Source of the DNA: Bacteroidota bacterium
GTDB lineage: Bacteria > Bacteroidota > Ignavibacteria > Ignavibacteriales > Ignavibacteriaceae
NCBI GenBank assembly: GCA_021813585.1
Contig: JAKAJV010000015.1
Span: 1 to 64,000, forward strand
DNA length: 64,000 nt
Direction: 5' to 3'
Shown: positions 3,529 to 49,269 of the stretch, piece by piece
Layout of the letters: every line of letters starts with the position of its first letter
Numbering within the stretch: the first letter of the stretch is position 1
Notes under the pieces: generated by a model
Seen by the model: the letters and a program-made list of their open reading frames with translations, nothing else
Told to the model about the DNA's origin: nothing
Databases searched by the model: none
Position numbers and translations under genes: made by a program

Positions 3529-5499
3529 ATGACTATTAAAAGAATTCTGGATAGCCTTTCTAATATTGAGGGCAACCCTTATGCGGTTGCAGACAAAAGT
3601 CTGAAAATAATATGGTATAATAAAAGCTTTAAGAATTATTTCCGCACTAAGAGAATAAACGGCGTATCAATACTAAAGTTGTTCAACCTTTCCTTAGCCG
3701 AAGAAATTTTACCGGCAAAAAAGAAGACGCGCGCAATTCCTTTTCCAGATGAAAAATTTATTTTGAAAACAACCAGACTTCTTTTCAATTACAAAACGGA
3801 CGGATATCTGCTCTATATAGAAAAAGAAGCCGATGCACAGTTAGAACAGGCGGACCAAAAAGAACAAACAGTAAAAAACCAGCAGTTTGCAGGAGAGCTG
3901 CGCCAGATTTTAACTCTTATGGCCAAGGAAAAATCTTTATTAAACCTTGCCGAAGAGATACTGATAAGATGCACCGAAATAGACAACAGTAAATTTGGTA
4001 TTTTATTGCTTAACGCCGAAAATAAAAAGTACGAATACATCTTTTACGATCCGCAAGAAAAGCTGGTAAATAAGGAAGAGATTAAGAGAGAAATAGAGAG
4101 TAACTTCAGCTTTATTTATAAATGGCTGAATGTAAACAAGCGGTCTTTGATTATTAAAAATAAGCATGAGAACCTTGGCTACAGCCTCTCCAAAGCGCTG
4201 GATACCGAGGCTGCACTGATAACCCCGTGCTTCTTCGAAGATAATCTTCTGGCTTCCGTAATAATCGGCAAGGAAGAAGGCTTTGCCGAAACTTCCGAAA
4301 TTAGCAACACAGAACAATTCGCCGCTCTGCTGGCGTTTGCAATTAACAGTATTAGAACGAGGGAACTGAATGACGCACTGGAAGCGAGATTATTGCAGGC
4401 ACAAAAGCTAGAGACAATCGGAAAGCTGAGCAGCGGAATGGCGCACGACTTCAGCAACCTTTTATCCAGCATCTTCGGCAGCCTAAATCTTCTGAAGAAA
4501 AGGGTGCCCGAAAGAGAGGATATTTACAGGCTGCTGGATAATATTGAAAACAGCTCGATAAGAGCCAAGGATTTAACAAAAGGCTTGTTATCGTTTGGCA
4601 AACCCACTCCCAAAAGAAAAGAATTAATTAAGCCGAACCTCCTGCTTTCCGAAATAGAAAAAGTAATTACTCAAACCTTTCCCTTAAACATTGGTTTCGA
4701 GTACGAGGTAGATGAAAATTTAAACAACATACTCGGCAACGGAACGGAAATTTACCAGGTTCTGTTAAACCTTTGCGTAAACGCGAAGGAATCAATTGAA
4801 GGCCGGGGAAAAATTACTCTTATCTCCAAGAACAGGACAATTAACGAATCGAACATTATAAATTATCCGCTGCTGGCAAAGGGAAATTACGTTTGGTTCT
4901 CCGTTATAGATACCGGCTCCGGTATAAAGGAAGAATATCTTTCCAGAATCTTCGATCCGTATTTTTCAACCAAAGACCGCCAGACCGGCTCCGGCTCGGG
5001 ACTGGGATTATATGTAACATACGGTATAATAAAAGCCCACAACGGCCACATAGACGTTTCGAGCGTTCCGGGTAAGGGAACAACTTTCGACGTCTTTATA
5101 CCTGCGTATGAGCCTACCGCTGCAAAAAAAATAATACCTGCCGAAAAAATTATTCTTCTTGCGGACGACGAGATTATGCTGCGGGATCTACTTGCCGAAC
5201 TGCTGGAGTCTTACGGCTATAATGTTATAAAGGTAAGCACCGGGACGGAGGTGTTGAAAGTTCTTATCGAAGAAATAAAAGTTGATCTTGTAATTATAGA
5301 CTATAATATGCCGGGCATGAACGGGCTCGACTGTATCCGCCAAATAAGAGGCCTGGAATTTAAGCTTCCCATTATTCTTTCATCGGGAAGCCTTTCTCTT
5401 CAATCCAACTTTGATTTTAAGAGCATGGGAATAAGCGACCTGCTGAACAAGCCGTATGAATTCGAAACCATGCTTGAGACAATACAGAGGCTAATCTGA
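3529..5499 (+). CDS. Hybrid sensor histidine kinase (GAF-HisKA-HATPase-REC)
   Basis: 656 residues, no membrane segment, so a soluble sensor. A PAS-like segment lies at about 1-95 and a GAF-like domain at about 125-280. The NtrB-type H-box GMAHDFSNLL carries H306. The ATPase domain has an N-box (NLCVNAKES), G1 box (DTGSGI) and G2 box (GSGSGLGLYV). A C-terminal receiver (about 540-655) has ADDE and phosphoacceptor D591. It probably phosphorylates the NtrC-type regulator directly upstream; the attached receiver may act as a phosphate sink. Its end overlaps the convergent gene at 5491-6162 by 9 bp. Confidence 0.93.
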   Translation: MTIKRILDSLSNIEGNPYAVADKSLKIIWYNKSFKNYFRTKRINGVSILKLFNLSLAEEILPAKKKTRAIPFPDEKFILKTTRLLFNYKTDGYLLYIEKEADAQLEQADQKEQTVKNQQFAGELRQILTLMAKEKSLLNLAEEILIRCTEIDNSKFGILLLNAENKKYEYIFYDPQEKLVNKEEIKREIESNFSFIYKWLNVNKRSLIIKNKHENLGYSLSKALDTEAALITPCFFEDNLLASVIIGKEEGFAETSEISNTEQFAALLAFAINSIRTRELNDALEARLLQAQKLETIGKLSSGMAHDFSNLLSSIFGSLNLLKKRVPEREDIYRLLDNIENSSIRAKDLTKGLLSFGKPTPKRKELIKPNLLLSEIEKVITQTFPLNIGFEYEVDENLNNILGNGTEIYQVLLNLCVNAKESIEGRGKITLISKNRTINESNIINYPLLAKGNYVWFSVIDTGSGIKEEYLSRIFDPYFSTKDRQTGSGSGLGLYVTYGIIKAHNGHIDVSSVPGKGTTFDVFIPAYEPTAAKKIIPAEKIILLADDEIMLRDLLAELLESYGYNVIKVSTGTEVLKVLIEEIKVDLVIIDYNMPGMNGLDCIRQIRGLEFKLPIILSSGSLSLQSNFDFKSMGISDLLNKPYEFETMLETIQRLI

Positions 5500-38322: not shown

Positions 38323-38410
38323 AAGGAACAATGTTTATCTTAAAGGCAGACGTTTGGCTGACCGGCGGGTCAAAAATATATTGATTGATAATCTGATATT
38401 GTTTATTTTT

Positions 38411-38434
38411 GAACCTATTAGTCAGTAAAGGTTC
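38411..38434 (+). promoter_or_regulatory. Small hairpin over the hemX ribosome binding region
   Basis: GAACCT-N12-AGGTTC ends 3 bp before the ATG of hemX and includes the only purine-rich segment (AAAGG) that could serve as ribosome binding site. Could affect translation of the first heme-cluster gene; weak evidence. Confidence 0.3.
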
Positions 38435-38437
38435 TTT

Positions 38438-39262
38438 ATGAAAGATATAATAGATTTTTCCAATATTCTTTTGCCCTTTCTTTATATCATAACTTTCGTG
38501 TTTTATTCGTACGATTTTATGAAGGGAGGCAAGAGGTTTGTTAATTCTAAAAGATTGTTTTTGTTCCTTACAATTTTCTTCCATCTTTTTTACCTTTTAT
38601 TACGAACCATTTATTTCGATCATCCGCCGATTACAAACGTATTCGAAATTTTTACCGTACTGGCTTTCGCAATCAGCTTTTCATATTTTATACTGGAGCT
38701 TGTAACCGACATAAGAGGAACCGGCCCGTTCATAATAATTATCTCAATTGTATTTCAAACTATTTCGTCTTTTTATATTCCGGATCTGTTTCAGGTAAAG
38801 GAAGTTTTGAGGAATCATCTTCTCGGCATCCATGTTTTTACCGCGCTCATCGGTTATTCTGCAATTACAATTTCGGCCGTGTACGGGTTCTTATATTTAA
38901 CTCTTTACAAAGATATTAAGCTGAATAAGTTCGGGCTGATCTTCGATAGGCTGCCAAGCCTGGATGTTCTAGAAAAATTAAGCTTCTATTCGGCGGTAAT
39001 AGGCTTTGTTCTTTTAACATGGACAATTATAATAGGGATTATCTGGCTACCCAAAGCATTCCCTAAATTCTCTTATGCAGATCCCAAACTGATAGGCACA
39101 TTTGCCGTATGGGTTTTATACGGTATCGGTCTCTTTAGCAAAATTTTCGGGAAGCTGCAGGGAAAGAAAGTTATTATACTTTCGATCCTCGGATTTGTTA
39201 TTGCGATTATTTCGACAATAATTACGAACTTTTTAGCCAAAAGCTTTCATTCATTCTATTGA
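38438..39262 (+). CDS. HemX/CcsA-type cytochrome c assembly membrane protein
   Basis: 274 residues, about eight TM helices. The GIHVFTALIGYSAITISAVYGFLYLTLYK segment (two parts) matches the CcsA/HemX family, and the gene directly precedes hemA as hemX does in Firmicutes. HemX modulates glutamyl-tRNA reductase levels; CcsA handles heme for cytochrome c. Its short length and location favour HemX. Confidence 0.85.
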   Translation: MKDIIDFSNILLPFLYIITFVFYSYDFMKGGKRFVNSKRLFLFLTIFFHLFYLLLRTIYFDHPPITNVFEIFTVLAFAISFSYFILELVTDIRGTGPFIIIISIVFQTISSFYIPDLFQVKEVLRNHLLGIHVFTALIGYSAITISAVYGFLYLTLYKDIKLNKFGLIFDRLPSLDVLEKLSFYSAVIGFVLLTWTIIIGIIWLPKAFPKFSYADPKLIGTFAVWVLYGIGLFSKIFGKLQGKKVIILSILGFVIAIISTIITNFLAKSFHSFY

Positions 39263-39268
39263 GATAGC

Positions 39269-40549
39269 ATGAAGTTATTAGCAGTTTCCATAAACCATAG
39301 GACCGCCCCGGTTGAATTAAGAGAAGCATTGCATTTAAGCGACAATGAAGTTCAGTCTTATATTCAAAAGATTAAAGGCAAACTGTTTTCCGAAGGCGTT
39401 GTTATTTCCACTTGCAACCGCACAGAGATTTACGGGATTCCCGTACGGCAGGATTTAACGCACGACGATATAAAGAACACACTGGGTAATATTAAATCAG
39501 TCGATTATCTTCAGCCGGAACATTTCCAGTACTACCGTTCCGACGAAGCGATTCATCATTTATTCAGCTTAGCTACCGGGATAGACTCCCTGCTTATTGG
39601 CGACAACCAGATTTTTAAACAGGTAAAAGATTCTTTTCAGATCGCAGAGGAAAACGGTTTCGTAGGCTTCTTAATGAAGAGGATTTTCGATTCTACTGTT
39701 AAAGCCGGCAAGCGGGCAATTACCGAAACTCTTATTAGCGAAGGCGCAGTTACCGTAAGCTATGCCGCAGTTCAACTGATTGAAAAAATATTTTCAAACT
39801 TAAGCAAGAAATCGGCTCTCGTTATAGGGGCGGGCGAGACCGGCGAGATAGCTGCAAAGCATCTTAGCGAAAGAGGGATAGGGAAACTGGCGATAACAAA
39901 CAGAACTAAAGAGCGCGCCGAAAAGTTAGCCGGTAAGATCAACGCAAAAATAATTCCGTTTGAAATCCTTAAAGAGCAGCTTTACGAATATGATATTATC
40001 CTGAGCGCAACAAGTGCGGAAAACATAATTCTTGGCAAGGAAGAAATTAAGGCGGCGATGAAAAAAAGGAATTATAATCCGTGCGTAATTATGGATATCG
40101 CCGTACCGAGAGATGTTGATCCCGCAGTTAAGGAAATTGATTACGTATTTTACAACGACATTGATTCCCTTAGCATAATCGTCCAGCAGAACCTGAATAA
40201 GAGAAAAGATCAAATTCCCAAAGTACAAAATATTATTGAAGAGGAATTAAAAGCTTTCATCAACTGGTATAAATCCCTTGATGCCGCACCCACAATAAAA
40301 AATCTTAGGGATTATTTCGAATCGATACGCGCAGAGGAAGTTGATAAAAACAAAAACAGGTTTTCTATGGAGGACCAGGAGAAGCTTGATATAATTACCA
40401 AAAGGATAATCAACAAGATTCTTCATCATCCGACCGTTGAGCTTAAGAAGTATGCAGAGTCGGATGTGGATTCCAACGAAGCAGCAATGAAGATAAGCAT
40501 TATTAAGGAATTGTTCGGGATAGACATTAACAACAACAAGGAAACATAA
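39269..40549 (+). CDS. hemA: Glutamyl-tRNA reductase
   Basis: 426 residues. Catalytic Cys49 in VVISTCNRTEIY, NADP-binding domain with ALVIGAGETGEIAAKHL, and the C-terminal dimerisation helix. Reduces glutamyl-tRNA to glutamate-1-semialdehyde, the first committed step of the C5 heme pathway. 6 bp after hemX, 1 bp before hemC. Confidence 0.97.
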   Translation: MKLLAVSINHRTAPVELREALHLSDNEVQSYIQKIKGKLFSEGVVISTCNRTEIYGIPVRQDLTHDDIKNTLGNIKSVDYLQPEHFQYYRSDEAIHHLFSLATGIDSLLIGDNQIFKQVKDSFQIAEENGFVGFLMKRIFDSTVKAGKRAITETLISEGAVTVSYAAVQLIEKIFSNLSKKSALVIGAGETGEIAAKHLSERGIGKLAITNRTKERAEKLAGKINAKIIPFEILKEQLYEYDIILSATSAENIILGKEEIKAAMKKRNYNPCVIMDIAVPRDVDPAVKEIDYVFYNDIDSLSIIVQQNLNKRKDQIPKVQNIIEEELKAFINWYKSLDAAPTIKNLRDYFESIRAEEVDKNKNRFSMEDQEKLDIITKRIINKILHHPTVELKKYAESDVDSNEAAMKISIIKELFGIDINNNKET

Positions 40550-40550
40550 T

Positions 40551-41492
40551 TTGATCAAGAAAATTATTATAGGCTCCCGCGGCAGCGAGCTTGCCTTATG
40601 GCAATCTAGCTTTGTTAAAAAAGAAATCGAGAAGGCCAATAAGAATTTAAAAGTCGAAATAAAAATAATTAAAACCACCGGCGATAAAATTCTTGATGTT
40701 GCTCTTTCAAAGATCGGCGACCGAAGCTTGTTCACCAAAGAGCTTGAAGCTGCTCTCTTAAAAAACGAAATAGATCTTGCTGTCCACAGCCTGAAAGACC
40801 TTCAAACACAGCTGCCTAAAGGACTGAAACTGGCTGCCGTAACAAAGCGGCATCCTGTTGAAGATGTTCTGATTGCCGGGAAGAAAGGAACTACACTCCA
40901 GTCGCTTCAAGAAAATGCGGTTATCGCCACCGGCTCGCTCCGTAGAAGATGCCAGATTCTGCATTTGCGTCCGGACATTAAAATTGAAGAGCTCCGCGGT
41001 AATGTTCCTACCAGGATCGAAAAATTTTTGAAATCAAAATGGGATGGGATAATTCTTGCGCGGGCCGGAGTAGAGAGGCTGAAGCTTCAAAAATATATTT
41101 CGTCTGTTATAAGCGCCGAAGAAATTATGCCTGCTGTAGGCCAGGGCGCACTTGGAATTGAGACAAGCGAAGAGAACAATTTTGTAAGTGAAATTTTGCA
41201 GTCAATCCACCACGAAGATACATACAAAGCAGTGCTTGCCGAAAGAGCTTTGCTTAGAACACTTGAAGGTGGATGCCAGGTACCCATCGGCGCATTTGCC
41301 GAAGTTAAATCAAACGGGTTGTATTTGGATTCGCTTGTCGGCTCGATTGACGGTACAATTACATTCAGAAAAAAAATAAGAGGCAGTAAAACAAATCCGG
41401 AAGGCCTGGGGAAAAGATTGGCTAAGGATTTGTTGAAAGCCGGAGCCAAGGGCATTCTTGATGAAATTTATTTAACCGCGAGGACGAAATGA
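40551..41492 (+). CDS. hemC: Hydroxymethylbilane synthase (porphobilinogen deaminase)
   Basis: 313 residues, TTG start 1 bp after the hemA stop. Conserved IGSRGSELALWQ, KDLQT and LEGGCQVPIGA, with cofactor cysteine C242 carrying the dipyrromethane. Joins four porphobilinogens. Overlaps the following lipoprotein gene by 4 bp. Confidence 0.97.
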   Translation: MIKKIIIGSRGSELALWQSSFVKKEIEKANKNLKVEIKIIKTTGDKILDVALSKIGDRSLFTKELEAALLKNEIDLAVHSLKDLQTQLPKGLKLAAVTKRHPVEDVLIAGKKGTTLQSLQENAVIATGSLRRRCQILHLRPDIKIEELRGNVPTRIEKFLKSKWDGIILARAGVERLKLQKYISSVISAEEIMPAVGQGALGIETSEENNFVSEILQSIHHEDTYKAVLAERALLRTLEGGCQVPIGAFAEVKSNGLYLDSLVGSIDGTITFRKKIRGSKTNPEGLGKRLAKDLLKAGAKGILDEIYLTARTK

Positions 41493-42109
41493 CGATTAAA
41501 AGTAAAAATATAATAACGGGGGCATTCATGTTTTTACTTTCTATTTCGATTTTGTTCGGGCTTAACTCATGCAGCTGCGGCTGCGGCACGGCAGACGCTT
41601 CGGATGTGCCGCTGAGCGTTCTTAACAAAGCAAATAATTTTATAATAACCCGCACAGGCAAGGAGTTTTTTGATAAGTATATAACGCCGGATTTTTCCCT
41701 GATTACTTACAAAGACCCGTATTATAAAATGGCGTATAAATTTTTTATGCCCGAAAAACCTTATGTAAATACTGTAATAACTTTTTCAATAGATAAGGAT
41801 GGGAAGATTGACGGGAAAGATGAGATAGCCGGAATACCGGAATATTTAAAAGACCCGGCCTCCTGCCGATTTAATATAGACGACAAGCAGGCTATAAAAA
41901 TAGCTAAGGAAAACGGGTTGAAAGAAGGCGTGTCCAAATGGAAGGTCGGGCTGCTCTGGGATAGTTCTTATAATCAATACATATGGCATGTTCTGTCTAC
42001 GTATTCGGAATCCGGCAAGGATAAGAACTATAAAGGCAGCGGTAAAGAATTTCTTATCGATCCCAATACCGGTCAGGTTATTTCGGCAAACTTATGGCAT
42101 ATTCCGTAA
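41489..42109 (+). CDS. Lipoprotein of unknown function in heme cluster
   Basis: 206 residues. Signal peptide with a lipobox ending in SCSCGCG (several cysteines at 28-32), so probably lipid-anchored in the envelope. The central part (DDKQAIKIAKENGLKEG ... and GKEFLIDPNTGQVISANLW) has the look of a PepSY-like fold, often found in secreted protease inhibitors or cofactor proteins. The 4-bp overlap with hemC shows co-transcription. Its heme role is unknown. Confidence 0.7.
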   Translation: MTIKSKNIITGAFMFLLSISILFGLNSCSCGCGTADASDVPLSVLNKANNFIITRTGKEFFDKYITPDFSLITYKDPYYKMAYKFFMPEKPYVNTVITFSIDKDGKIDGKDEIAGIPEYLKDPASCRFNIDDKQAIKIAKENGLKEGVSKWKVGLLWDSSYNQYIWHVLSTYSESGKDKNYKGSGKEFLIDPNTGQVISANLWHIP

Positions 42110-42179: not shown

Positions 42180-43571
42180 ATGTCAGCAGAATCGAAAATA
42201 GAAAACAAGAAAGACTTTAAAAGGAAGAAAATCGTTGAGTCTGCCCTTATTCTTTTCTCAAAGAAAAGCTATCACGAAGTAATGATGGAAGACGTGGCAA
42301 AGCTTTCTTCAATTGCCAAGGGTACGGTATACAACTACTTCAGCTCAAAGGAAGAATTGTACTTTTCAATAATGAACATGAGGATGGAGAAGCTGATCCT
42401 TTCGCTTAAAGAAAAAATTAAAAGCGAGATGAGCAGTATAGACTCTCTTCACTCGTTCATCATACACCTTTACATGTTCATGATGAAATACCAGAGCTTC
42501 TTCTTAATTTATCAAAAGGAATCTCTCAATGCTTCTCACGAGCTTTGTTCGGAAATTGTTTCGCTTGAAAAAGATTTGAGGAATATACTTGCCGGAATTA
42601 TAAGGGCAGGCGAAACGGATAATTTGTTCAGGGAAATTGACGAAGGCTTTGCCGTGGACCTGATTCTGGGAAGTATTTACGGCGCAATACAGAGAGGAAT
42701 AGAGAATAATTATACGGAAAAGCAGATGGAATGCGACCGCGAAAAAATTTACGACTTTGTATTGCACGGCCTGTTCTCCGGCTTTGAGGAGAATAATATG
42801 TTCCCGCTTAGAGGCAAGACGATTGTAATTACCAGGACAGTTGAGCAGTCAAAAGAATCTTCGGAAATTTTTAGGCAGCTAGGCGCGAGTGTTATAATCT
42901 TCCCCACTCTCGATATTGTTCCGCCGGACAGCTGGCGGGAATTTGATATGGTTGTAAAAGGCAAGGCAAAGATTGATTTTATTATTCTAACTTCTGCGCA
43001 CGCGGTTAAGATGTTTGTAAAGCGAATTGAAGAGCTCGGAATTTTATTTGATTTCAATCGCACAAAGATTGTTGCCGTTGGCAATAAGACTGCGGCGGTA
43101 TGTGAGAAAAATAAAATACCGGTAAATATTATTCCCAAAAAGTTCAGTGCGGAGGGTGTAATAGAAGAGTTGTCGGCGTACGATCTTGAGAACAAAGTAA
43201 TTTTTATTCCCCGCTCGGCTATCGGCAGGGAAGAGCTGCCGGAGGGGCTTGAGAAGCTCGGTGCTATTATGAAGACCGCTCCCGTTTACAATGTTTCTCT
43301 TCCTTCTGAAGATAAAGTTGCTAACAGCAGAGAGCTGCTTAATCAAACCAAGCCGGACCTTTTCATCTTCACCAGTCCGTCTACTTTTGAAAACTTTCTT
43401 CAGATACTGAAAATTTCCGACCCCGTAAAATACTTTGACAATTATAAGATTGCTGCTATAGGTCCTACTACAAAAACAGCAATAGAGAACAAAGGTGTTC
43501 ATGTAAATATTATGCCGGCAGAATATACTATTGACGGGCTGGCAAAAGCCATCCTCAATTATTACAAATAA
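42180..43571 (+). CDS. hemD: TetR-family regulator fused to uroporphyrinogen-III synthase
   Basis: 463 residues in one open frame. Residues 1-200 are a TetR-type regulator: helix-turn-helix 36-60 (MEDVAKLSSIAKGTVYNYFSS) and a helical ligand domain. Residues 207-463 are a uroporphyrinogen-III synthase (LRGKTIVITRTVEQS, TSAHAVKMF, NKTAAV, IIPKKFSAEG, FTSPSTFENF, AIGPTTKTAIE). An in-frame ATG at 42798 is preceded by GAGGAG, so HemD may also be made alone. Position between hemC and hemE fits hemD. The regulator part may sense a porphyrin or heme; inference. Confidence 0.88.
   Translation: MSAESKIENKKDFKRKKIVESALILFSKKSYHEVMMEDVAKLSSIAKGTVYNYFSSKEELYFSIMNMRMEKLILSLKEKIKSEMSSIDSLHSFIIHLYMFMMKYQSFFLIYQKESLNASHELCSEIVSLEKDLRNILAGIIRAGETDNLFREIDEGFAVDLILGSIYGAIQRGIENNYTEKQMECDREKIYDFVLHGLFSGFEENNMFPLRGKTIVITRTVEQSKESSEIFRQLGASVIIFPTLDIVPPDSWREFDMVVKGKAKIDFIILTSAHAVKMFVKRIEELGILFDFNRTKIVAVGNKTAAVCEKNKIPVNIIPKKFSAEGVIEELSAYDLENKVIFIPRSAIGREELPEGLEKLGAIMKTAPVYNVSLPSEDKVANSRELLNQTKPDLFIFTSPSTFENFLQILKISDPVKYFDNYKIAAIGPTTKTAIENKGVHVNIMPAEYTIDGLAKAILNYYK
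42786..42800 (+). promoter_or_regulatory. Internal ribosome binding site and start for HemD domain
   Basis: GAGGAG (42786-42791), six bases, then ATG (42798-42800), codon 207 of the fusion and exactly at the start of the HemD domain. One of the better ribosome binding sites in the window, though placed inside an open frame. Confidence 0.55.
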
Positions 43572-43787: not shown

Positions 43788-44855
43788 ATGATAAAGAACG
43801 ATCTATTTTTAAGAGCATGTAAAAAGCAACCGGTGGAAAGAACGCCGGTATGGATTATGCGTCAGGCGGGCAGGTATTTGCCCGAGTACCGGGCGGTGAG
43901 AGAGAAAGCGGATTTCCTTACCATGTGCCGCACTCCTGAGCTTGCTGCCGAGGTTACTATTCAGCCGGTAGATATTATCGGAGTTGATGCGGCAATTATT
44001 TTTTCCGATATACTTGTCATTCCCGAAGCAATGGGAATGGAGCTTGAAATGATAGAGTCCAAAGGTCCGGTCTTTCATCATCCCGTAAGAACCGATGAAG
44101 ACGGAGCCGTGCTGAAGCAAATTGATCCAGCAAAGGATCTTAAATATGTAATGGATGCTGTTACACTGGCAAAAAGAGAATTGAGCGGAAGAGTACCGCT
44201 GATCGGCTTTAGCGGCTCGCCGTGGACTTTGCTAACTTACATGGTTGAAGGCAGCGGGATGAAGAATTTTTCCGTTGTGAAAAAGCTTATGTACAACAAT
44301 CCTCTGCTGGCGCATAAAATTCTGGATAAACTCGCCGTTACTGTTGCCGATTATCTTTCGGCAAAAATTGAAGCCGGCGCTGATGCGGTGCAAATTTTCG
44401 ATACGTGGGGAGGGCTGCTCTCGCCGGAAGATTATAAGGAGTTTTCGCTTTCGTATATTTCAAAAATCATTTCGCTGATAAAGAGAAAGCAGCAGCCGGT
44501 AATAGTTTTTTCAAAAGGTGTGCATCAGTCGCTGGAAGAACTTGCTTCATCCGGCGCCGATGTAGTTGGGCTGGATTGGACAATCGATATCGGTACCGTG
44601 AGAAAAACGATCGGCGAGAAGGTTGCACTGCAGGGCAACATGGACCCTACTTTGCTTTATGCCCCCGATGAAAAGATAAGGGACGAGGTAAAGAGAATTC
44701 TTGGTGCCTACGGCAGCGGCAGCGGACATGTGTTTAATCTTGGGCATGGCATACTGCCGGATGTAGAACCGGAAAAAGCCAAAGCCCTTGTGCAGTTTGT
44801 TAAGGACGAAAGCAAAGCTTTTCACCGCAAAGTCGCGGAGGCGCAAAGGGAATGA
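43788..44855 (+). CDS. hemE: Uroporphyrinogen decarboxylase
   Basis: 355 residues. Conserved WIMRQAGRYLPEYR, IIFSDILVIPEAMG, GFSGSPWTLLTYM, QIFDTWGG and GHGILPDVEPE. Converts uroporphyrinogen III to coproporphyrinogen III. Overlaps the following GxxExxY gene by 4 bp. Confidence 0.97.
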   Translation: MIKNDLFLRACKKQPVERTPVWIMRQAGRYLPEYRAVREKADFLTMCRTPELAAEVTIQPVDIIGVDAAIIFSDILVIPEAMGMELEMIESKGPVFHHPVRTDEDGAVLKQIDPAKDLKYVMDAVTLAKRELSGRVPLIGFSGSPWTLLTYMVEGSGMKNFSVVKKLMYNNPLLAHKILDKLAVTVADYLSAKIEAGADAVQIFDTWGGLLSPEDYKEFSLSYISKIISLIKRKQQPVIVFSKGVHQSLEELASSGADVVGLDWTIDIGTVRKTIGEKVALQGNMDPTLLYAPDEKIRDEVKRILGAYGSGSGHVFNLGHGILPDVEPEKAKALVQFVKDESKAFHRKVAEAQRE

Positions 44856-45238
44856 ATAATGAGGAACTAAATAGATTAAGTAAAATTATTTTGGATGCCT
44901 CTATTGAAGTTCATAGAAATTTGGGTCCGGGATTATTAGAAAGTGTTTATGAAGTTTGTCTTTGCAAAGAATTGAATGCCAGAAATGTTAACTCTAAAAG
45001 ACAAGTCGAACTGCCTGTTTTTTATAAAAATGATAAACTGGATGCAGGATTCCGAATAGATATATTAGTAGAAAATGAAATAGTATTGGAGCTAAAATCA
45101 GTTGATGTATTACTGCCAGTTCATGAAGCGCAATTAATAACTTATTTGAAGCTGGCGGATAAAAGACTTGGGTTTTTAATTAATTTTAATGTGCCCAAAC
45201 TAATTGAAGGATTTAAACGAAAGGTAAATAATTTTTAA
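44852..45238 (+). CDS. GxxExxY-family protein inserted in heme cluster
   Basis: 128 residues. Carries the family signature GPGLLESVY, then E-x-x-V-x-L and FRIDILVENEIVLELKSVD with D and ExK residues of a PD-(D/E)xK nuclease-like core, and ends LINFNVPKLIEGFKRKVNNF. The gene is unrelated to heme synthesis. The sequence after its stop (CTTTGCGTCTTAGCGTCATT) is part of a dispersed GCGTC-type repeat commonly seen with this family, so gene and repeat may have arrived together. Confidence 0.9.
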   Translation: MNNEELNRLSKIILDASIEVHRNLGPGLLESVYEVCLCKELNARNVNSKRQVELPVFYKNDKLDAGFRIDILVENEIVLELKSVDVLLPVHEAQLITYLKLADKRLGFLINFNVPKLIEGFKRKVNNF

Positions 45239-45287
45239 TTCTTTGCGTCTTAGCGTCATTGCGGTGAAGAATGAAGGAGATGATAAT

Positions 45288-46664
45288 ATGTTCGAAGTAG
45301 ATTTGAAAAAATTTAAAAAATACGATAAGCCGGGACCGAGGTACACAAGCTACCCAACAGCTCCGCACTTTAACGAAAGCTTTAAGCACGAAGAATTTCT
45401 GGATGAAATAATAAAGACAAATTACGGCGAAGGTCTGCCGGACTTATCGCTTTACTTTCATCTTCCTTTCTGCGATACGCTTTGCTACTTCTGCGGCTGC
45501 AACATGATAATAACCCGCAACCGCGACAGAGTAAAAGAGTACATAAAGTATCTTAAGAAAGAAATCGATATGGTGCGGACTTACCTGTTGGCAGACCGCA
45601 AAGTTACGCAGCTTCACTGGGGCGGCGGCACTCCAACTCATCTCAAGCCGGAAGAGATTGATGAGCTCGGCTCATTCATTAAAGCTTCGTTTAATTTTGA
45701 TGATAACTCCGAGAACGGCTGCGAGATCGATCCGCGCGAGTTGACACGGCAGCACCTTGAAGCTCTCCGAAGCAACGGCTTTAACCGCATTAGCATGGGC
45801 GTGCAGGACTTTAACGAAAAAGTTCAGAAGGCTACAAACAGAATTCAGCCTGAAGATATTACCAGACAAACTGTTCAGTGGGTAAGAGAGCTTGGGTTCA
45901 GCAGTATCAACCTTGACTTGATGTACGGGCTTCCGTTTCAAACTCTGGAAACTTTTGAAGAAACCCTCGATAAGACAATCGACATCTCGCCGGATAGAAT
46001 CGCCGTATTTAACTATGCGCATGTGCCGTGGCTAAAGAAGCATATGTCTCTTATTCATCCTGAAGACCTGCCTGTGCCCGAAGTAAAATTAAACATCCTT
46101 AAAATGACAATTGAAAAGCTGACCGGCGCGGGATATGTATTTATCGGTATGGATCATTTTGCAAAGCCGGACGACGAGCTTGCCATCGCTCTTAAAGAGA
46201 AAAAGCTTTACCGCAATTTTCAGGGTTACAGTACTCACTCCGGCACCGACTTATACGCAATGGGTGTAACGGCAATAAGCCAGCTTCAAAAAGTTTATGC
46301 ACAGAACTATAAGACCGAGAAAGAATATTTCCATGCAATAGATAACGAGATTCTTCCCGCTGCAAAAGGCTATAGACTTAATGAAGACGATATTCTCCGC
46401 CGAGACGTGGTGATGAAGCTTATGTGCAACTTCGGGCTGGACTTTAAGACGATAGAAGATAAGTATAAAATAAATTTTAAAGAATACTTTGCCTGGGGCT
46501 TGAATAACCTGAAGGAAATGGAACAGGACGAGCTTTTAACCTTAAGCGATGATAAAATTGAAGTAACTCAGATGGGCAAGCTTCTAATACGCAACATTGC
46601 CATGAACTTTGACGGCTACATTGAGCGGAAGGAAGATACCGCGAAGTATTCACGTACGGTTTAG
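45288..46664 (+). CDS. hemN: Oxygen-independent coproporphyrinogen III oxidase
   Basis: 458 residues from the ATG at 45288, which has a strong ribosome binding site (AAGGAG, 8 bp). An upstream in-frame ATG at 45243 lies in repeat sequence and is rejected. Radical SAM motif C62-x3-C66-x2-C69 (FCDTLCYFCGC), HWGGGTPT, and the HemN C-terminal domain. Makes protoporphyrinogen IX without oxygen, so the organism can grow anaerobically. Confidence 0.96.
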   Translation: MFEVDLKKFKKYDKPGPRYTSYPTAPHFNESFKHEEFLDEIIKTNYGEGLPDLSLYFHLPFCDTLCYFCGCNMIITRNRDRVKEYIKYLKKEIDMVRTYLLADRKVTQLHWGGGTPTHLKPEEIDELGSFIKASFNFDDNSENGCEIDPRELTRQHLEALRSNGFNRISMGVQDFNEKVQKATNRIQPEDITRQTVQWVRELGFSSINLDLMYGLPFQTLETFEETLDKTIDISPDRIAVFNYAHVPWLKKHMSLIHPEDLPVPEVKLNILKMTIEKLTGAGYVFIGMDHFAKPDDELAIALKEKKLYRNFQGYSTHSGTDLYAMGVTAISQLQKVYAQNYKTEKEYFHAIDNEILPAAKGYRLNEDDILRRDVVMKLMCNFGLDFKTIEDKYKINFKEYFAWGLNNLKEMEQDELLTLSDDKIEVTQMGKLLIRNIAMNFDGYIERKEDTAKYSRTV

Positions 46665-46844: not shown

Positions 46845-48233
46845 ATGAATAAAAATATTGTTATACTAGGTGCAGGCATCTCCGGATTAACAACGGCATA
46901 TCTTCTTAACAAGGCAGGTTATGGTGTAACAGTGCTTGAGAAAAATAAAGAAGTCGGCGGCTCGATGGAAAGCGTTTTTGAAAACGGGTATATGTTCGAT
47001 AGAGGTCCTAACAGCGGGCTTGAAACTACACCTTTGATCGGGCAGCTTGTTGATGAACTCGGACTTCATGATCAATTATGCTACGCTAACAAGGAGGGGA
47101 ATAAAAGATACATTCTCAGGAATAACCAGCTTCATCCTTTGCCGATGAATCCCCCGGCATTTTTAAAGACAAAACTATTTTCCGGTAAAGCAAAATTAAG
47201 GCTGCTCGTTGAGCCGTTAATCGGAAGATCAAATGATGGTTATTACCAGAGCATCTCAGATTTTGTTAAACGCAGGCTCGGCAGGGAATTTTTAGATTAC
47301 GCAATAAACCCGTTCGTTGCAGGTGTGTATGCAGGCAATCCGGAGGAGCTAAGCGTAAAGTCGGCTTTCCCAAAATTATATGCCCTGGAAGAAAAGTACG
47401 GCGGGTTGATTATCGGAACAATAAAGAGTATTAAGGAAAGGAAACAGAGAGCGGAAAAGTCGAAGCAGAGTGCAAAGATGTTTTCGTTTGTAAACGGGAT
47501 GCAGACTCTGCCCAGACGCATTGCTGATAGCCTTGGCGGAAAGGTAATCACTTCGGCGCAAGTTTCATCAATTGAAAAGATGAACACAGGATTTACGGTT
47601 ACTTATAAGAAGGAAAACAATATAGAGCAAATAGGCAGCGATATAGTGCTTTCAACAATTCCTGCTTACGCTGCTGCGGAAGTATTTAACGGATGGGATG
47701 ATGAACTTACAAAGCATCTTTCACAGATTTATTATCCGCCGGTTCTTGTATTGTACGTTGGCTATAACAAGCATGCAATAAAGCAGCCGCTGGATGGATT
47801 CGGTTTTTTAATCCCGTCTAAAGAAAAGAAATCTTATCTCGGTGCAATCTGGAGTTCTGTAATTTTTCCTAACCGGACTGAAAACGGCAAAGCAACATTC
47901 ACTTTGTTTGTGGGAGGTTCAAGGTCTCCGGAAATTGCAGATGCAGATAAAGAGACCGTAATAAAGAAAGTGCTGGGCGAATTTGAAAGCCAGATGGAAA
48001 TTTCAGAAAAGCCGGTTTATACCTCTTACCGGTTCTGGGCGAGGGCAATCCCGCAGTACAATATCGGCTACATTGAACATGAAAATTATTTTGACGAATT
48101 TGAAAAGAAGAATCCCGGCATTTTTCTGGGAGGCAATTACCGCGGCGGAATATCCGTGGGTGACTGTATTAAAAATTCCGAATTTATAGTGAACAAAATA
48201 AATACTCTTTGCGACTCAGCGGCTTTGCGGTAG
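46845..48233 (+). CDS. hemY: Protoporphyrinogen oxidase, HemY/HemG flavoprotein type
   Basis: 462 residues. FAD-binding GAGISGL (9-15), [21 protein letters not shown] and the C-terminal [16 protein letters not shown]. Oxidises protoporphyrinogen IX to protoporphyrin IX. The last residues (TLCDSAALR) are coded by a GCGTC-type repeat that begins about 48203, so the original C-terminus may have been replaced. Confidence 0.94.
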
Positions 48234-48282: not shown

Positions 48283-49269
48283 ATGGCAACATATCCTGTA
48301 AAGAGACTAAGAAGACTACGTTACAATCCGTTGATAAGAGACATGGTAAGAGAGACCGAACTAGCGAAGAACGATTTTATCTACCCGTTGTTTGTAGTTC
48401 CCGGTGAAAAAGTTAAGAAGCCGATTAAATCCATGCCCGGCGTTTTCCAGCTATCGATAGACAATCTTGTTGTAGAATGCAAAGAGGTTGCAGAGCTTGG
48501 AATACCGGCGGTAATTTTATTCGGTATACCTGCGCATAAAGATGAAAGAGGCTCGGAGGCATATGATCCGGAAGGTATAGTTCAGCGTGCAATTAGAGCA
48601 ATTAAAAAAGAAGTAAAAAATCTTCTTATTATTACTGACGTGTGCATGTGCGAATATACATCACACGGACATTGCGGCTTACTAGACGGCGAAGAAATCC
48701 TAAATGATGAAACGGTTGAACTGCTGGCTAAGGAGGCTTTAACTCATGCACAGGCTGGCGCAGATATAATTGCACCTTCGGACATGATGGACGGAAGGAT
48801 TGCAGCAATTAGAAAAATTCTGGACGCGAACGGATTTAATAAAATTCCGATCTTGAGCTATGCCGCTAAATATTCTTCCGGTTATTACGGACCTTTTAGA
48901 GAAGCAGCAGAATCGGCACCCGCATTCGGCGACAGGCGCTCGCATCAAATGGATATTGCAAACGGCGATGAAGCTTTGCGCGAAGTTGAATCCGATATTG
49001 AAGAAGGCGCAGATATAGTTATGGTTAAGCCCGCCGGTCCTTATCTTGATATTATAAGAAGAGTGAAAGACAGGTTCGGTATGCCGACATGCGCTTACCA
49101 GGTAAGCGGCGAATACGCTATGATAAAAGCCGCCGGTATTAACGGCTGGATAGATGAAGAGCGTGTAATGATCGAATCTCTTATCGCTATTAAGCGCGCC
49201 GGAGCGGATATGTTCCTTACATACTTTGCTAAAGACGCGGCACTGTGGATTGAAAAGAACAAAAAATAG
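48283..49269 (+). CDS. hemB: Delta-aminolevulinic acid dehydratase (porphobilinogen synthase)
   Basis: 328 residues. Zinc cysteines C121, C123, C131 in [13 protein letters not shown] show a zinc-dependent form; Schiff-base lysines lie in SYAAKYSS and [10 protein letters not shown]. Condenses two 5-aminolevulinates to porphobilinogen. Last heme gene of the cluster. Ribosome binding site GGAAAGGAG. Confidence 0.97.

Follow-up and report, generated by a model that had tools for sequence, protein, structure and literature searches.

The window analysed here, a 64,000-nucleotide stretch of DNA from the order Ignavibacteriales, encodes a 463-residue protein in which a TetR-type regulator and uroporphyrinogen-III synthase (HemD) form one chain. 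We propose, at a probability of roughly 0.75, that this TetR–HemD protein is a bifunctional enzyme and regulator that controls its own heme operon through a predicted operator, TGACY-N4-RGTCA, at the promoter of ccsB, the operon's first gene (Table 1). The open frame had been read in the preliminary description and holds, running from TetR into HemD with no stop between the domains.

Three Pfam domains lie along the chain: TetR_N (18–62; 6.3e-12), TetR_C_24 (85–166; 6.5e-7) and HEM4 (227–455; 1.4e-51). The N-terminal half opens with the TetR_N helix-turn-helix (HTH; PF00440, 45.5 bits against a cut-off of 24), whose G-T-x-Y-x-Y-F..K core is invariant or nearly so in 44 homologues, and continues into an all-helical ligand and dimer domain (TetR_C_24, 30.1 bits against a cut-off of 26.4; helices 57–198 in the AF2 model). 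The HemD half covers HEM4 end to end (PF02602 positions 3–230 of 231, 175 bits).

Table 1 Features of the heme operon and the fused gene, in window coordinates.
Feature	Position	Strand	Basis or remark
Operator O1 (predicted), TGACCGGCGGGTCA	38359–38372	+	just 5′ of the ccsB promoter's −33 element
Bacteroidota-type promoter: TTG 38381–38383, TATTTTTG 38404–38411	38381–38411	+	conserved within genus
Operator O2 (predicted, weaker), GAACCTATTAGTCA	38411–38424	+	on predicted transcription start; relatives have stronger versions there
ccsB (cytochrome c assembly), first gene of operon	38438–39262	+	profile matches
hemA (glutamyl-tRNA reductase)	39269–40549	+	our own reading of the sequence; order conserved
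hemC (porphobilinogen deaminase)	40551–41492	+	our own reading of the sequence; order conserved
Lipoprotein-like gene between hemC and fusion, weak PepSY match	41489–42109	+	match below cut-off; present in part of relatives
Fused TetR–HemD gene, 463 aa	42180–43571	+	ATG to TAA, no internal stop; homologues
TetR half, residues 1–198 (HTH 13–62, FadR-like ligand domain 63–198)	42180–42773	+	Pfam/NCBIfam, solved chains, AF2 model, VIA-align
Linker, residues 199–211	42774–42812	+	weakly conserved, low pLDDT; pN/pS, pLDDT
GAGGAG 42786–42791 and in-frame ATG (codon 207) 42798–42800, possible internal start	42786–42800	+	not conserved
HemD half, residues 212–463 (uroporphyrinogen-III synthase)	42813–43571	+	PF02602 1.4e-51; UROS structures; sole HEM4
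hemE	43788–44855	+	TIGR01464
hemN	45243–46664	+	TIGR00538
hemY/hemG-type protoporphyrinogen oxidase	46845–48233	+	TIGR00562
hemB (ALA dehydratase)	48283–49269	+	our own reading of the sequence; order conserved

The same fusion recurs well beyond the window. Within the order, 46 of 164 genomes have full-length or nearly full-length matches in frame, 45 of them without a stop, and family f13, elsewhere in the class, adds four at 37–46% identity. This brings the total to about 50 genomes of the class Ignavibacteria in three families. A sequencing or assembly error is rejected, the frame being open in about 50 independent genomes, and this in-frame recurrence, with the stop between the domains absent, marks the fusion as genuine. 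The one interrupted frame belongs to a same-genus metagenome-assembled genome (MAG; G010, loci L006/L034), with TAA at residue 142 within the TetR half and the HemD frame still open. Named relatives are all Ignavibacteriales MAGs. One locus that looked unfused (L027, genome G007) was rejected as a contig edge. Among 395 sampled genomes of the phylum, searched with the fused profile and also with the TetR half, no TetR–HemD was found outside the class; two-half matches to the fused profile fell solely in the window's own order.

AF2, run on 44 window and locus sequences, predicts two confident halves (mean pLDDT 88.8, pTM 0.51) joined by a loose linker, in which pLDDT drops below 50 at residues 203–205; with the low pTM and the floppy linker, nothing indicates that the halves pack against each other in a fixed way. 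The HemD half aligns with UROS folds at VIA-align Z 18.8–20.9, the structures 3re1, 4es6 and 3mw8 scoring about 20–21; alignments at about 20–21 cover 237–246 residues. The solved chains closest to the TetR half are Bacillus FadR (YsiA, 1vi0) with 5gpa and 3whb, at Z 20.9 over 184 residues. FadR and KstR2 both score about 21 over 184–188 residues, and other TetR proteins match too; with Z values within 1 of each other, the TetR half is assigned to neither FadR nor KstR2. The FadR equivalog NF053878 scores 78.6 bits, below its cut-off of 200, which places the TetR half outside the fatty-acid FadR subfamily. The FadR proteins differ further in being free-standing fatty-acid regulators, with 20–24% identity to the TetR half.

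Both halves are held by purifying selection, whereas the joint is not: in the same-genus nucleotide comparison, pN/pS reaches 0.43 in the linker, against 0.14 (HTH), 0.18 (TetR ligand domain) and 0.21 (HemD) elsewhere in the chain. HTH residues A46, K47, G48, T49, Y51, K57 and Y61 are invariant across 44 sequences. The ligand domain has three conserved polar residues, H96, Y98 and K103. Of these, H96 occurs in 39 of 44 sequences and Y98 in 38 of 44, and both are retained where TetR is a separate protein; of the free-standing TetR proteins, the nearest three were compared and have no histidine equivalent to H96. H96 and Y98 are candidates for ligand binding.

The GAGGAG and in-frame ATG at the junction had been put forward as a possible source of HemD alone. 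Both are present as described, and similar SD-like runs occur in L032, L033 and L040; a separate HemD product finds no support, since the arrangement is confined to the window and its three or four nearest relatives. Met207 is missing from most fused homologues, none of the other six same-genus sequences offers another start preceded by an SD-like run, and GAGGAG at this point simply spells two Glu codons. Ignavibacteria, going by Bacteroidota in general, may depend little on SD sequences, which we also count against an internal start. That the gene yields two products, full-length TetR–HemD and HemD from the ATG at 42798, strikes us as quite improbable.

The operon runs ccsB-hemA-hemC-lipoprotein-[TetR–HemD]-hemE-GxxExxY-hemN-hemY-hemB, and the place of the fusion in it is common to all fused relatives (ccsB-hemA-hemC-[TetR–HemD]-hemE-hemN-hemY-hemB). 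The GxxExxY (PDDEXK_3) gene, at 44852–45238 between hemE and hemN, recurs there in several relatives (L063, L073, L083, L089, L094 and L096), though not in every one. The window's genome has no second HEM4, and the same holds for nearly every fused relative, so the HemD half must be a working enzyme if the pathway works. Its setting is that of a working HemD, as the sole copy in the genome with hemC and hemE in the same operon.

The chain also matches NF005568 (PRK07239), which we take to be the NnaR family, over the HemD part only and at 42.6 bits, below the cut-off of 273. The nearest precedents for TetR–HemD are trigger enzymes and this actinobacterial NnaR. NnaR of Streptomyces and mycobacteria likewise combines HemD with a DNA-binding domain in a single polypeptide; it is a transcription regulator of nitrate and nitrite use and has no HemD activity (PMC6277429), a precedent for reading the HemD fold here as a non-catalytic sensor. 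In NnaR, however, HemD is N-terminal and the DNA-binding domain, a winged HTH of the orphan response-regulator type, C-terminal, and the host has another HemD. TetR–HemD has the reverse order and a TetR domain. It belongs to a complete hem operon, keeps the conserved HemD motifs and is the genome's only HemD, which makes a non-catalytic HemD half very hard to credit.

Aligning same-genus sequence ahead of ccsB uncovered a conserved palindrome, consensus TGACY-N4-RGTCA, next to a promoter that resembles the Bacteroidota consensus (−7 TAnnTTTG, −33 TTTG; PMC7366714). Its upstream copy, O1, is the window's sole match to TGACCN4GGTCA when one mismatch is allowed; as shuffles expect 0.55 such matches in 64 kb, it is conservation rather than rarity that gives O1 weight. 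In many fused genomes a further palindrome sits on the predicted transcription start, 44–53 bp from the first, so that the two sites flank the promoter. Families f13, f22 and f11 have a single palindrome, the one on the predicted start. The Thermus FadR operator, TTRNACYNRGTNYAA (PMC5597230), has an ACY..RGT core similar to that of the site predicted here.

We trained a position weight matrix on the upstream (O1) sites of fused loci only and applied it at a threshold of 10 within 150 bp of ccsB. At this threshold 33 of 35 TetR-bearing loci have a site, against 0 of 23 TetR-less loci (background 0.006 per 150 bp), the training set being part of the positive set. The matrix also picks up the site in f13 and in the lineages with split genes, at −19 to −39. 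Seven independent contrasts on the operon tree gave five with the association, none against and two ties (sign test p 0.0625, the minimum that five contrasts can give, independent losses being few). The palindrome at the ccsB promoter is likely the operator of the TetR half, and this likely operator, co-occurring with that half, is the new element here. The proposal that the fused protein regulates the heme cluster, made when the frame was first described, thereby gains support.

The palindrome could instead belong to another regulator, the TetR half having some other target or none. The genome encodes six further TetR_N proteins, and two fused genomes depart from the pattern: G013, with a weak downstream site only, and G030 (L080/L138), without the site. 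In G030, H96 and Y98 were lost together with the operator, the TetR half still being fused; its siblings G084 and G085 are entirely without a TetR half, and G030 looks like decay of the TetR half in progress. Since the site otherwise follows the TetR half through the contrasts, split forms included, with none contrary, ownership by another regulator appears rather improbable to us. Exact TGACYN4RGTCA matches number four in the window's genome, equal to the reversed control; the three besides ccsB comprise two within genes and one intergenic after a gene's end. TGACCN4GGTCA was not above control in ten relatives either. The link between TetR half and operator thus rests on one conserved promoter. 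Operator-like palindromes also stand at the same place after hemB in two same-genus genomes, G001 and G004 (L033:12815–12828 and L040:12741–12754), some 300 bp ahead of a YceI-like gene; the window has none there.

Family f2 and parts of f1 and f3 have HemD without TetR, in the operon position that the fusion takes elsewhere. Many relatives thus keep HemD without the TetR half, which is therefore not essential. The outlying families f22 and f11 have a separate tetR directly before hemD with a 4–8-nt overlap. Such split overlapping genes occur in G171 (hemD ATG at 5438, tetR stop ending at 5441; L112, reversed), G253 (hemD ATG at 5371, tetR stop ending at 5378; L113) and G235. A quick, midpoint-rooted tree of five operon proteins places f22 just outside, then the fused f13, then the order with its fused and unfused members, which are mixed even within genus g19. 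The HemD-only tree is too poorly resolved to settle the order of events, and counts alone cannot separate gain from loss of the TetR half. Read most simply, these trees and gene orders would mean that overlapping genes fused once and that the TetR half was then lost several times.

Some hem loci are unusual in other ways. L068 (G019) and L131 (G096), both in TetR-less relatives, have two tandem HemD domains in one frame of about 570 residues at the hemD place. A HemC match is absent from G080, G081, G077, G035, G101 and G093, several of them near complete; same-genus siblings of some of these have the hem operon, which gives the appearance of pathway loss. G025 has a second hem operon (L066, contig G025:C27, 7.8 kb) all but identical to the one in G100 (L125), probably a stray or contaminant contig, or else a recent transfer.

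We infer the workings of TetR–HemD, from dimer state and DNA binding to repression, enzyme activity and signal, along the following lines. The C-terminal half would act as the cell's only uroporphyrinogen-III synthase and catalyse the pathway's usual fourth step. The N-terminal half, of TetR/FadR fold, would bind as a dimer to the TGACY-N4-RGTCA palindromes flanking the single ccsB promoter, and with that promoter fronting ccsB-hemACDENYB the protein would control its own operon. TetR–HemD probably represses the heme operon, which would place the pathway under negative feedback. The one basis for preferring repression to activation is site position: the site lies on the predicted transcription start in f13, f22 and f11, and a second site lies there in others. 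O1, just upstream of the −33 element, may tighten repression or add control. Release might come through a ligand in the TetR pocket, for which heme or a porphyrin would be our first guess and acyl-CoA, as in FadR, our second, or with a change in the loading of the HemD half.

These two modes of release correspond to two versions of the enzyme-regulator proposal. The TetR half may autoregulate with a ligand of its own, HemD being a passenger without a sensing role that was joined when the overlapping genes lost a stop. In its favour, split overlapping pairs carry similar operators, the loose linker combines relaxed selection with low pLDDT, and the TetR ligand domain has its own conserved H96, Y98 and K103, the first two retained in split forms. 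Against it, though not decisively, the fusion has been retained in three families at 37–77% identity although refission would be easy. We place this version, origin included, a little short of even odds. By analogy with BirA and PutA, occupancy of HemD by hydroxymethylbilane or uroporphyrinogen III might instead set binding of TetR to its operator. A pathway enzyme that is the sole HemD, fused inside its own pathway operon and long conserved as such, would fit a sensing role. Split forms, however, do without the covalent link, an interface is not predicted and the TetR half retains a ligand domain of its own; we find this version doubtful.

BirA and PutA regulate genes of their own pathways. 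Together with NadR they are trigger enzymes, metabolic enzymes with an added DNA-binding domain (PMC8249747). These are other enzymes with other DNA-binding folds, and their ligand coupling is proven, whereas TetR–HemD fits the class by domain make-up alone. As a candidate heme-operon repressor, TetR–HemD also resembles HrtR, FhtR and HatR, heme-sensing TetR repressors of heme export, FhtR having two 14-nt palindromes at its promoter (PMC7858072); unlike it, they control export, are separate proteins and are not described as enzyme fusions. In-frame HemD fusions are known as HemC–HemD and uroporphyrinogen-III methyltransferase–HemD (PMC4921024), and HemD–HemX forms an NCBIfam family (NF005411), but in none of these is the partner of HemD a transcription regulator: it is another enzyme or a membrane protein. 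In the open-access literature, which is the part of the literature we searched, we found no report of a TetR–HemD fusion.

The tuning of heme synthesis in Ignavibacteria, a group that has received little study, is undescribed as far as open-access literature searches show, and here a whole module can be read from sequence: a sole HemD with its regulator, and a predicted operator at the operon promoter. Living families offer overlapping-gene, fused and TetR-less versions of it for comparison. The TetR half would represent a hem-specific TetR family with a conserved histidine, H96, as a possible heme or porphyrin ligand, and the TetR–HemD chain with its predicted 14-bp site would be a natural start for tetrapyrrole biosensors. 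TetR–HemD offers a testable case of a pathway enzyme acting as its pathway's transcription regulator. If HemD occupancy does prove to be the signal, heme gene transcription would be under direct enzyme-level feedback, a form of control for which we found no report in the literature searched: uroporphyrinogen-III synthase would sense tetrapyrrole flux, and the TetR half would open or shut the heme operon promoter.
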